A stretch of 64,000 nucleotides of DNA from Stenotrophomonas maltophilia (GTDB lineage: Bacteria; Pseudomonadota; Gammaproteobacteria; Xanthomonadales; Xanthomonadaceae): positions 1,528,358 to 1,592,357 of the forward strand of contig FOZF01000001.1 of assembly GCA_900113425.1 (NCBI GenBank), written 5' to 3'. Below the pieces are notes generated by a model that saw only the letters and a list, made by a program, of their open reading frames with translations, searched no databases and was not told the DNA's origin. Shown piece after piece: positions 20,578-60,551 of this stretch. Numbering within the stretch: position 1 is the first letter of the stretch; every line of letters starts with the position of its first letter. The position numbers and the translations under genes are program-made.

Positions 20578-21026
20578 ACGACATTCCTTGCCGTTGAGTC
20601 AGGCGCCCAGCATAACCGGTTGGTGATCGGCACGGCCATCGCGCAGGTTGTCGTATCTGGACTGGCTGGCAACGCAGGCATTGTGCGACGCCGACACGGC
20701 TCTCCGGGCGCGCGGAAGGCCGCCGATCCGAACACGCACATTGCAACTTTGCCCATGTCATCGCGCTGTAGACCGCGCGACGGTGGCATCTGCCAGCGCC
20801 CCTGTGCTGGCCGGGATTGGCGTCCCGAATGAAGCTTTTCACGAGCGGGCTTTGCAACGTTATTGCAGGTCCGAACAATGCGCCGTCCGTCGTTCTGCGG
20901 CGGGCGGTACGTGGGGATCTCCGGATCCGCCGGCGTCTTTTCTCGTGAAGAGCTTCACCGGCACGCCAACCCGCACCGCCCGCCACCTTGCGTCCTGCAG
21001 GTGGACTTGCCTGTGAGGTTGCTGCC
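20578..21026. other. 449-nt intergenic region with a spaced inverted repeat
   Basis: No convincing ORF. A 15-nt inverted repeat, GAAGCTTTTCACGAG at 20831-20845 and CTCGTGAAGAGCTTC at 20942-20956 (14 of 15 pair), encloses 96 nt. Inside is a small hairpin TGCAA-CGTTA-TTGCA and a GGATC/GGATCC pairing. It may be an RNA leader of the downstream small gene or a short mobile remnant. The remaining 250 nt to the left hold the divergent promoter region of the S41 peptidase, with nothing else I can name. Confidence 0.55.
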
Positions 21027-56506: not shown

Positions 56507-57769
56507 TCAATCCTTGACGATCTGCGGCGATCCAAGGCCCAGACCGGCAATGCGGCCGACAAGTTCCGCGGCACTGGCATGGTCGCTGGCGGGTACGCGC
56601 AGGCGGAAGAGCGTGCGGCCACCGGCGGCGATGTCGCTGATGGTCGCGCCGACGATGCCGGCCGCATTGAGCTGACCCATCGCACGATTGGCATTGTCAC
56701 GGTTGGAGAAGCTGGCTACCTGCACCATCACCGCCCCCACCACCTGCTGCGACAGCGTGGGACTGCTGGCCGGCGCCGCAGAAGCGCGCGGCGCAGTGGC
56801 AGCGACCCTCGTCGGCGCGGCGGCAGGTGCCGCACCGCGGACGGCCACCGCACTCGGCGGCAGGCTGCTGACCGCCACGTCCGGCAGCGTGCTGACCACC
56901 GCCTGCGTGGTGGCCGGCTGGCCCCGCGTCGGCGCCGCATCGGCAGGCAGGCGTTTGACCAGGCGGTCGATGTCACTGTCGGCTGCCGGGCGCGTGGCGA
57001 CAGTGCTCGCCATCGTCGTCGCCGCACCGGCAGCGGCGGCGGCTTCGGCCGCCCGGCGCTCGCGGCGCGACGGCTTCTGCGCCAGCAGATTGCCCTCACC
57101 CGGCTGCAGCGCGCGCACCTCCACATTGCCGGTACCGCGCTGGGTGATGCCCAGGCGCACCGCAGCGGCATAGCTCAGATCGACCACGCGGCCATCGTGG
57201 AACGGGCCCCGGTCGTTGACCCGCACGATCACCGACTCGCCGTTGTCCAGATTGGTCACCCGGGCGAAGCTGGGCAACGGCAGCGTCTTGTGCGCAGCGG
57301 TGAACTGGTACATGTCGTAGACCTCGCGGTTCGAGGTCAGGCGGCCATGGAACTTGGCGCCGTAGTACGACGCCGTACCGCGCTCGACATAGTCGCGGGT
57401 ATCGTCGAGCACCTTGTACGACTTGCCCAGCACCACGTACGGCGATTTGTTGCCGATGGCCGAACGTGTTTCAGCCGTCACTTCCGGCTCGGGAATGCAG
57501 GCCACGTTGGGAATGTAGGTCGGCGTGCTGTCTTTCACGCCCGGTCGGTACAGGCCGCCGGCGGTGTAGTTGCCCCGCGTGTTCGGGTCTTCCTTGGCCG
57601 CCGCATAGGGCGACCCCTCGGGACAATGCGCCGGGCGCGTGCCCCTGCCCTGCACCACCGTACCGGAAGGCGTTCCACCGTGGCCGGCGGTGGCCGGCTT
57701 CTTCGGCGCGCTGCTGCAGGCGGCCAGCGCGAGGACGATCAATCCAGGGACCAGCCATCTGATGTTCAT
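56507..57769 (-). CDS. rlpA: RlpA septal-ring lytic transglycosylase lipoprotein
   Basis: A 420-residue lipoprotein (LAAC, Cys18). A double-psi beta-barrel domain spans about 125-215 with GTASYYGAKFHGRLTSNRE and the catalytic Asp in RVNDRGPFHDGRVVDLS. A long Ala-rich linker leads to a C-terminal SPOR domain (about 350-418), which binds denuded glycan strands at the septum. The start overlaps the mltB stop as ATGA. The protein acts in cell division and daughter-cell separation. Confidence 0.93.
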   Translation of the reverse strand: MNIRWLVPGLIVLALAACSSAPKKPATAGHGGTPSGTVVQGRGTRPAHCPEGSPYAAAKEDPNTRGNYTAGGLYRPGVKDSTPTYIPNVACIPEPEVTAETRSAIGNKSPYVVLGKSYKVLDDTRDYVERGTASYYGAKFHGRLTSNREVYDMYQFTAAHKTLPLPSFARVTNLDNGESVIVRVNDRGPFHDGRVVDLSYAAAVRLGITQRGTGNVEVRALQPGEGNLLAQKPSRRERRAAEAAAAAGAATTMASTVATRPAADSDIDRLVKRLPADAAPTRGQPATTQAVVSTLPDVAVSSLPPSAVAVRGAAPAAAPTRVAATAPRASAAPASSPTLSQQVVGAVMVQVASFSNRDNANRAMGQLNAAGIVGATISDIAAGGRTLFRLRVPASDHASAAELVGRIAGLGLGSPQIVKD

Positions 57770-58911
57770 GCCGGGGGCAGCTCCTGTCCGGCAATGGCCT
57801 GGGACAACTGGAACACGGCCATCGCGTACATCTTCGAGAGGTTGTAGCGGGTGATCGCGTAGTAGTTCTGGAAGCCCAGCCAGTACTGCTTGCCGGTGCT
57901 GCCCTCGAGGGTCACCGGAGTCGCCGTCGCACCCGGCTGTACCGGTGCGGCAGGCCGATAGCCACGCTGGGCCAGGTCGGCCAGCGACCAGGTCGGTGCC
58001 CACTCGGTCGGATTGAATTCCTCGCGCCCCGGAGCGAGTGTCGCCGGCACGGCCACCTGCCCACCCCGGACCCAGCCTCCCTTCTTCACGAAGTAGTTGG
58101 CAATGGAGGAAAACACGTCGTCGTAGCTGTTGAACAGGTCACGGCGACCGTCGCCATTGCCGTCCACGGCATAGTCCAGATAGCTGGACGGCATGAACTG
58201 GCCCATGCCCATCGCACCGGCATAGCTGCCCTTGAGCGTGGTGATGTCGAGTTTCTCCTCGCGGCCCAGTTCAAACAGCTTGGCCAGTTCATCACGGAAG
58301 AACAGCTCGCGGCGCACCTCGCGTTCCAGCTTCTCCGGATCGCCGCTGCGCGGGTAGTAGAAGGCCAGCGTGTACAGCGCATCGAGCACGCGGTGGTTGC
58401 CGGCATTCCTGCCATAGCTGGTTTCCACGCCGATGATCGCCACAATCACCTCGGCCGGAACGCCGGTGCGCTGCTGCACGCGATCAAGCTCGGCGCGGTG
58501 TTCGGCGAGGAAGGCACGGCCACCGTCGATGCGCGCCTTGCTGATGAACATCGGCCGGTATTCGTTCCAGGGTTTGACCCGTTCGGCCGGGCGCGACATC
58601 GCGGCGATGATCGGCTGGCGCACCTGCGCCTGGTCGAGCACGCGACGGATCTCGTCGGGCTGCAGTCCGTAACGCTTGGCGGTATCGGCGATGAAGGTGG
58701 CGCGCGCGGTCTCGAACGGAACCGGCGTGAGATCGACCGGCGGCGCGGTGGCGGCGGTGGCTTCCGGCGCGGCCTCGGCCGGTCCCTTGGGCTTGCTGGC
58801 CGGATGGCGCGGCGTACTGCTGGCCTGCGGTGAAGACGGTGGAGATGTCGGCTGGGTCGCGCAGGCGACCAGGCCGAGGGTAAGCATGCAGGCCAGAGTG
58901 CGTCGAATCAT
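57766..58911 (-). CDS. mltB: Lytic murein transglycosylase B
   Basis: A 381-residue lipoprotein (Cys17 in LVACA) with a Pro/Ala-rich spacer and a lytic transglycosylase domain. The catalytic Glu163 is in AIIGVETSYGRNAG. MGMGQFMPSSYLDYAVDGNGDG is the family's second signature. It overlaps rlpA by four bases, so both hydrolases are made from one transcript. A likely promoter is 30-70 nt upstream (TTGTGA and TTTAAT). Confidence 0.94.
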   Translation of the reverse strand: MIRRTLACMLTLGLVACATQPTSPPSSPQASSTPRHPASKPKGPAEAAPEATAATAPPVDLTPVPFETARATFIADTAKRYGLQPDEIRRVLDQAQVRQPIIAAMSRPAERVKPWNEYRPMFISKARIDGGRAFLAEHRAELDRVQQRTGVPAEVIVAIIGVETSYGRNAGNHRVLDALYTLAFYYPRSGDPEKLEREVRRELFFRDELAKLFELGREEKLDITTLKGSYAGAMGMGQFMPSSYLDYAVDGNGDGRRDLFNSYDDVFSSIANYFVKKGGWVRGGQVAVPATLAPGREEFNPTEWAPTWSLADLAQRGYRPAAPVQPGATATPVTLEGSTGKQYWLGFQNYYAITRYNLSKMYAMAVFQLSQAIAGQELPPA

Positions 58912-59438
58912 CGTCGCAGGTTAGCAGGTCATGGATGAATTAAAACCCCTAACACCATGAATCACAACGATTTGCTTGCGAGCAGTCGAAATTGTGAAAA
59001 CGATGTGAGCGATCCATCGCATTCAGTTGAGAGGTTGCCGGTTGCGTCCCCATCCCCGCAGACGCAACCGGCGACCGGATCCGGTCGATACGCGCGCGGC
59101 TGCCGCTCCCCAGTGGCAGTGCCCCGCGCGCCTGTATCCGTTGGATCAGTACTGCTTCCCGCCCGACGCCCCCTCGCGCTGCAACGATAGACGGCGCGCC
59201 GTGCCGAACGGGCCGCCATTGTGCAGGCCGATTACGACAAGTCCATTGATCAAAATCAACGCGGTGTAAAAATGTGAACCAGATAACGTTTTTTTAGGGC
59301 TTTGGTCAGCGGACCTGCTGTTGCGCGTCTTCATGGGAACGCTTCCATGAAGGGCGTTGCGCAAGCGTTGGACGGCCCCGGCCTTGCCCGAAACGCAGGC
59401 GTGCAGCACCCTGCGTCGGCCGCGCGCTCCCAGAGGTA
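58912..59438. other. 527-nt AT-richer gap between mltB and rodA
   Basis: No gene is firmly supported. A leftward reading frame of 62 codons (59334 to 59146, starting MKTRNSRSADQ) has a hydrophobic stretch but poor codon usage for this genome. A rightward 77-codon frame at 58957 is also unconvincing. The gap holds the mltB promoter, a perfect FNR-type site and an 8-bp hairpin CTTCATGG/CCATGAAG at about 59330-59353. Confidence 0.55.
59246..59259. promoter_or_regulatory. FNR/ANR-type box
   Basis: TTGATCAAAATCAA fits the FNR consensus TTGAT-N4-ATCAA exactly. A GATAAC at 59282-59287 lies at the spacing of a -10 when the box is centred near -41.5, giving a rightward start near 59294. A weaker leftward alternative (CACAAT) would start near 59211. 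Confidence 0.6.
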
Positions 59439-60551
59439 CTAGCCGTAGCCGCCGTGCACGGGATTGTGGCTGCGCACCGCCATCACCAGCCCGAAGCCGG
59501 CCAGCAGCGAGACGGCCGACGTACCGCCATAGCTGATCAACGGCATCGGCACGCCCACCACCGGCAACAGACCCGAGATCATTCCGCCATTGACCAGCAC
59601 GTAGACGAAGAACGCCAAGCCGGTGGCACCGGCCAGCAGCCGCGAATAGGAGTCGCGCGACTGGCTGGCGATCCACAGGCAGCGCCCGATCACCATCAGG
59701 TACAGCGCCAGCACGATGGCCACGCCGATCCAGCCGAATTCCTCGCTCAACACCGAGAACGCGAAGTCGGTGGTCTGCTCGGGAATGAAGTTCAGGTGCG
59801 ACTGCGAGCCTTCGCCCCAACCCTTGCCGTCGAACCCGCCGGAACCGATCGCGATCTTCGACTGGATGATGTTCCAGCCCGCGCCCAGCGCATCCATCTC
59901 CGGGTCGAGGAACATCATGATGCGGTCTTTCTGGTAGGGCCGCAGCAGCCAGAACCAGGCCAGCGGCGCGACCGCGGCCACGCCGCCCACGCCCAGCCCC
60001 ACCCACCACCATGGCAACCCGGCCAGCAGCAGCACGAACACGCCGCTGGCAGCGATCAGCACGCCCGTGCCGAAGTCCGGCTGCAGCATCACCAGACCGG
60101 TCGGCACGCCGATGATGACCAGCGACACCAGCACCGTATTGATGCGTGGCGGCAAAGGCACCTTGTGCAGGTACCAGGCCACCATCATCGGCAGGCTCAC
60201 CTTCAGCAGTTCAGCCGGCTGCAGGTAGAAGAACTTCAGGTCCAGCCACTGCCGGCCGTATTTGCCGGTACCGAGCACGAACACCGCCAGCAACGGGATC
60301 ATGGAGATCGCGTAGATCATCGGCGTCGCCGAACGGATGCGCAGGATCGGTACCCGCGAGATGCCCCACAGCGCGGCCATGCCCACGGCGAAGCGGGCGC
60401 CCTGCGCCATCACCAGGCTGTCGCCGCCTGCACTCTTCAGCGTGGCCAGGCCGATCATCATCAGCGCGCCCAGGGCAAGGCACAGCACCCAGTCCAGCGT
60501 GCTGAAGAAGCGCCGCAGCATGTCCCCGGCCCATCGCAGGAAGGCCTTCAT
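59439..60551 (-). CDS. rodA: Rod-shape peptidoglycan polymerase RodA
   Basis: A 370-residue membrane protein with about ten helices, the SEDS-family glycosyltransferase that works with PBP2. Motifs include the WYLHKVPLPPRIN region, LQPDFGTGVLI, and NGGMISGLLPVVGVPMPLIS near the C-terminus. The start overlaps the mrdA stop as ATGA. It completes the mreC-mreD-mrdA-rodA order. Confidence 0.96.
   Translation of the reverse strand: MKAFLRWAGDMLRRFFSTLDWVLCLALGALMMIGLATLKSAGGDSLVMAQGARFAVGMAALWGISRVPILRIRSATPMIYAISMIPLLAVFVLGTGKYGRQWLDLKFFYLQPAELLKVSLPMMVAWYLHKVPLPPRINTVLVSLVIIGVPTGLVMLQPDFGTGVLIAASGVFVLLLAGLPWWWVGLGVGGVAAVAPLAWFWLLRPYQKDRIMMFLDPEMDALGAGWNIIQSKIAIGSGGFDGKGWGEGSQSHLNFIPEQTTDFAFSVLSEEFGWIGVAIVLALYLMVIGRCLWIASQSRDSYSRLLAGATGLAFFVYVLVNGGMISGLLPVVGVPMPLISYGGTSAVSLLAGFGLVMAVRSHNPVHGGYG

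Follow-up and report, generated by a model that had tools for sequence, protein, structure and literature searches.

Between mltB and rodA, the Stenotrophomonas maltophilia genome almost certainly carries a small-RNA gene with its own leftward promoter, and the predicted RNA is probably an FNR-activated sponge of the small RNA sX13, resembling FnrS in how it is triggered and CrfA in how it acts. The features behind this reading, all from one stretch of 64,000 nucleotides that we call the window, are collected in Table 1.

Table 1. Features of the mltB-rodA interval and its flanking genes (positions in the window)
Feature	Position	Strand	Basis or remark
mltB, lytic murein transglycosylase B, downstream neighbor	57766..58911	-	TIGR02282, PF13406
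Predicted non-coding RNA, ~186 nt, start ~59211, 3' end approximate	59026..59211	-	Promoter geometry, fold, covariance model
3' hairpin, likely terminator stem	59037..59072	-	Compensatory change in 8/13 pairs
3' loop GGGGAUGGG, contains GGGGAUG	59049..59057	-	GGGGAUG exactly complements CAUCCCC in sX13 loop 1
Middle hairpin	59079..59147	-	Alignment, fold
Middle loop UGGGGAG	59106..59112	-	Exact complement of CUCCCCA, sX13 loop 2
G-run AGGGGGC, 5' domain, might also contact sX13 loop 3	59168..59174	-	Not universal
-10 element CACAAT, 22 nt from box	59218..59223	-	CACAAT/GACAAT at same spacing in all 29 perfect-box genomes
FNR-type box TTGAT-N4-ATCAA (palindromic), predicted to act leftward at about -41.5	59246..59259	-	Letters, conservation
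CRP/Clp-like element TGTGA-N6-TAACG, near -70 of leftward promoter	59273..59288	.	Fixed spacing to box
rodA, rod shape-determining protein, upstream neighbor	59439..60551	-	TIGR02210, PF01098

The preliminary description had reported a perfect FNR box, and indeed the window holds no TTGATNNNNATCAA site other than TTGATCAAAATCAA at 59246-59259, even when one mismatch is tolerated (mean in shuffled sequence, 0.32). Its intergenic position and its distance to the mltB start (58911) had also been given correctly. The whole genome (4.14 Mb) holds seven perfect boxes, against none in the backwards control. Further perfect boxes lie before or beside genes assigned by Pfam to an OmpW-family protein, a hemerythrin, and a zinc alcohol dehydrogenase; the gene downstream of another we take, from its translation, to be cydA, and yet another precedes a frame that presumably encodes a truncated hemoglobin, again on our own reading and with no Pfam match. 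Judged by these predicted products, the set of genes beside the perfect boxes has the makeup expected of an FNR regulon.

We compared the mltB-rodA interval across 31 Stenotrophomonas genomes, that of the window included, and found the box perfect in 29, degenerate in one (TTGATCTCGGTCAT), and gone in one. A second comparison took in 80 named mltB loci, 53 from Stenotrophomonas or close kin and 27 from Xanthomonas, Pseudoxanthomonas, and related genera. Box and RNA loop occurred together at 47 of the 53, the loop without a perfect box at 2, and neither at 4, and neither box nor RNA was found at any of the 27. Conservation in close relatives, on which refutation had been staked beforehand, is thus borne out (29/31 genomes, 47/53 loci). 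One of the four loci with neither feature belongs to S. terrae, in which the FNR-type query also found no match, in an assembly of unsure completeness. The same box and RNA also turned up at a Stenotrophomonas-type mltB locus in a record titled Bacillus subtilis SK7B5 (L222), a record that is on this account probably contaminated or mislabeled.

The direction of the promoter can be read from what has been kept on either side of the box. On its left, ATTGTG, which is CACAAT on the minus strand, lies exactly 22 nt away in every one of the 29 perfect-box genomes (GACAAT in two), and the spacing is held even where the sequence between box and -10 has wholly changed. A TTGAT-N4-ATCAA palindrome near -41.5 with a -10 at the matching distance is the arrangement of a class II FNR promoter. 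The combination box-N22/23-NACAAT was found in 31 of 198 family genomes and never in the reversed control, and elsewhere in the family it heads genes for a COX1-family ccoN-type oxidase, cytochrome c assembly, coproporphyrinogen oxidase, and a universal stress protein. Because the leftward -10 and its spacing are kept, the rightward features are not, and the same arrangement stands elsewhere in the family before genes typical of low oxygen, the promoter is predicted to fire to the left. The class II FNR promoter in a gene-free gap that had been proposed earlier therefore stands, but its rightward direction does not, the conserved -10 being the minus-strand CACAAT. Box, -10, spacing, and conservation were read directly from the letters; transcription, dependence on FNR, and the ends of the RNA we infer from them.

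The right-hand neighbor of the box varies, since many relatives carry an extra rodA paralog there. This RodA-like paralog, which shares about 66% identity with rodA, lies between the box and rodA (e.g., L031, 2165-3232) and is missing from the window, in the gap 59260-59438, and from several other genomes. In the S. maltophilia/S. rhizophila group, TGTGA-N6-TAACG keeps a constant distance of 28 bp to the FNR box, and its resemblance to a CRP/Clp site is better in other members of the group (e.g., TGTGACGCAATTCGCA). By its letters and spacing, this element hints at a second activator, and we offer it as a lead only.

Encoded in the genome are two FNR-type regulators, both of which have N-terminal cysteines and a recognition helix of the E-x-x-S-R form. 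P0001, with CSTCAFSDAC and a PETASR recognition helix, aligns over its length with solved FNR proteins and scores below the NCBIfam cutoff for Fnr itself. P0002 is FnrL/FixK-like, with N-terminal cysteines (CLHC...C) and METVSR. Since some genomes with both RNA and box lack a close homolog of P0001, and their sole FNR-type match is at the level of P0002 (26 to 32% to P0001), P0002 may be the more general activator of the RNA promoter.

Promoter geometry places the predicted start of the RNA near 59211, and the minus strand from 59211 to 59026 folds better than shuffled sequence (z, -3.1). In the conserved stretch that runs from the -10 toward mltB, a 5' domain is followed first by the middle hairpin and then by the 3' hairpin. 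Across 22 distinct sequences, the 3' hairpin combines compensatory changes in 8 of its 13 pairs with 99.3% of cells paired; controls in which one arm was slid gave at most 3 compensatory pairs and 29 to 51% paired. Its loop is constant at GGGATGGGG and has decayed solely in the genome that lost the box. In the middle hairpin, pairs of the stem are swapped (beside the loop, e.g., U-A to A-U and G-C to A-U) and the loop GGGGAG is kept, reading GGGGAAG in one case. A U-run after the 3' hairpin is clear in several distant members and weak in the window and its S. maltophilia relatives. A protein-coding reading is unlikely, because the start of the 85-codon frame on the minus strand (58962-59219) falls within the -10 and differences in RNA length between species are not divisible by three.

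A covariance model of the RNA, R1, detected it in all 31 Stenotrophomonas genomes and in divergent members of the genus, where it again adjoins mltB and has the box and -10; the only two misses among the genus genomes tested were incomplete or fragmented. No R1 homolog was found outside the genus in 198 family genomes under strict filters, and the matches there of R2, a short model of the 3' hairpin, were set aside as hairpins lacking the GGGATGGGG loop and with no mltB nearby. No Rfam family matches the locus, either at the gathering score or in a relaxed scan; the FnrS model does not match it, and the sX13 family (RF02232) matches the polA locus and not this one. Our search of the open-access literature yielded nothing relevant on small RNAs of Stenotrophomonas at low oxygen, a result that falls short of proving novelty. 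Our best reading is nevertheless that the RNA is previously undescribed, a putative oxygen-controlled sponge directed through two loops against one defined small RNA and matching no known RNA family. Elsewhere in the window, at 20893-20990 (+), lies a match to the C4 antisense RNA (Rfam RF01695, 53 bits). C4 antisense RNAs are typical of P4/P1-type phage elements, and the match suggests a prophage or satellite in the window.

The proposed partner, sX13, is a constitutive RNA encoded downstream of polA that acts through three C-rich loops on mRNAs with a GGGG motif (PMC3771888). We turned to it because its loops were known to be C-rich and those of the new RNA are G-rich. In the genome of the window, sX13 lies downstream of polA (RF02232, 124 bits), with predicted loops CAUCCCCU, CCUCCCCA, and UCCCCCU. 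GGGGAUG in the 3' loop of the new RNA exactly complements CAUCCCC of sX13 loop 1 over 7 nt, a match that extends to 9 nt (GGGGAUGGG) with the neighboring stem, and UGGGGAG in the middle loop exactly complements CUCCCCA of sX13 loop 2, likewise over 7 nt. The two matches are in antiparallel order, as needed for a double kissing complex, and complementarity of this kind to the targeting region of another small RNA is one mark of a sponge. With the costs of opening counted, the two contacts together scored better than all but 4 of 600 random windows.

The sequence CATCCCC-N15-45-CTCCCCA occurs once in the genome of the window, at sX13, and was found at sX13 in 38 of 38 genomes; elsewhere we counted about 19 occurrences in some 320 Mb of strand, or roughly 1 per 17 Mb. 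From that background, the probability that a given 200-nt RNA would match at both places by chance is around 1e-5, a figure to be read with the caveat that sX13 was picked for its known C-richness, so that a match was more likely from the outset. In sX13, loops 1 and 2 are invariant across all aligned sequences of the genus, and with loops invariant on both sides, covariation cannot support the pairing. Moreover, sX13 keeps its loops in genera that lack the new RNA, so that it is the new RNA that fits sX13, and co-evolution is not demonstrated. In distant members the 3' loop reads UGGGAUG, leaving 6 of 7 in-loop pairs with sX13. Two further observations concern sX13 itself: in one genome the full sX13 is accompanied by another, partial sX13-like copy (97% over 61 nt; L149, G034:C392:14790-15060), and an exact 19-nt match to the sX13 5' region lies close to the box in one genome.

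In the scheme that we favor, low oxygen would cause the class II FNR-type promoter to fire leftward and yield a structured non-coding RNA of about 186 nt, ending at the strong 3' hairpin before mltB. Its UGGGGAG and GGGGAUG loops would pair loop to loop and antiparallel with sX13 loops 2 and 1 and take up the C-rich loops through which sX13 acts on GGGG-motif mRNAs, and as a sponge of this kind the RNA would relieve the repression of sX13 targets under low oxygen. While the covarying hairpins, the invariant loops, the complementarity to sX13, and the FNR-type regulators are there to be read in the genomes, physical pairing and an effect on sX13 targets are what we infer. A stronger version, which we consider possible and rather doubtful, would have a purpose-built mirror of sX13, with G-rich segments facing all three sX13 loops antiparallel, an FNR oxygen switch supplemented by a CRP/Clp-type factor in the S. 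maltophilia/rhizophila group, and the whole sX13 regulon made oxygen responsive.

The same evidence for promoter and RNA would also apply to an FNR-activated small RNA that, like FnrS, pairs directly with mRNAs; its G-rich loops could reach C-rich messages, and the match to sX13 would then be a by-product of those loops. We think this unlikely, however, as each of the two loops has an exact counterpart of its own among the sX13 loops, the order is antiparallel, and no other place in the genome of the window offers such a pair.

The RNA could instead be a long, FNR-driven regulatory 5' leader of mltB, given that it lies on the same strand and always upstream of that gene. Yet the stretch from the RNA to mltB varies in both length and sequence, and several members show a U-run after the 3' hairpin. 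A separate block at the start of mltB (58917-58972, minus strand), in which two ATTCAT-type repeats stand at a spacing of about 22 nt (ATTCATGGTGTTA...ATTCATCCATGA), is strongly conserved, also in Xanthomonas and at loci that lack the RNA. This speaks for an RNA separate from mltB and makes the leader quite improbable; the block is probably the mltB promoter or an operator.

About as improbable is a decoy for RsmA/CsrA. In the same bacterial family, Xanthomonas campestris has the decoy-type RsmU, an RNA that carries GGA motifs and binds the protein RsmA; it is processed from the comEA 3' untranslated region and has been reported only in Xanthomonas (PMC7694677). The GGGGAG and GGGAUGG loops of the new RNA, both conserved, would likewise offer GGA, and in distant members GGGGAG forms a hexaloop in the register preferred by CsrA. 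Against this, RNAs of the RsmY/RsmZ/RsmU type have hairpin loops with several ANGGA motifs, and the new RNA has two conserved GGA-containing loops, with no Rfam match; the base before N-GGA is G and not the favored A; and the whole GGGG and GGGAUGGGG runs are conserved beyond what GGA binding needs.

Least credible is the RNA originally proposed, running rightward from about 59294 and possibly antisense to the rodA 3' end: its letters are present in the window and the symmetric box might fire weakly to the right, but its -10 (GATAAC, 59282-59287, in the weak half of the TGTGA-N6-TAACG palindrome) drifts in relatives (gctaac, gcgcac, etc.), the stem-loop of its CTTCATGG...CCATGAAG repeat, which the window does have as letters, is absent from relatives, its right-hand neighbor is not conserved, and it folds no better than shuffles (z, -0.58). 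The general idea of a small RNA with FnrS-like logic holds, on the opposite strand, with a predicted course from about 59211 leftward to about 59026, and the RNA is not antisense to rodA.

FnrS of enterobacteria is a small RNA turned on by FNR at low oxygen; together with Hfq, it uses single-stranded segments to act on mRNAs. The new RNA would share its trigger, but it matches no Rfam family and is highly structured, with G-rich loops. CrfA of Caulobacter crescentus, a sponge of the small RNAs SisA-D, is similarly a separately encoded, condition-induced RNA, whose G/A-rich stem-loop complements the C-rich core of other small RNAs; it differs in being induced by carbon starvation, linked to Hfq, and directed at four sibling targets (PMC12559287). 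In the new RNA, by contrast, two loops face two loops of one small RNA, the promoter is of the FNR type, and the lineage is unrelated. With sX13 it has in common that both are structured Xanthomonadaceae RNAs and act, in the new RNA by prediction, through hairpin loops (RF02232; PMC3771888). However, sX13 has C-rich where the new RNA has G-rich loops, and it is constitutive, encoded downstream of polA, and found family-wide. The new RNA is the complement of sX13 and not its homolog.

As a conserved constitutive regulator of the Xanthomonadaceae, sX13 controls virulence and motility genes in Xanthomonas, and why S. maltophilia, without the Xanthomonas secretion system concerned, retains it is an open question (PMC3771888). 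If our reading is true, sX13 would gain a regulatory input from an antagonist dedicated to it and controlled by oxygen, low oxygen would be tied to a posttranscriptional network, and the pair would clearly illustrate how one RNA can be shaped, loop for loop, to fit another.
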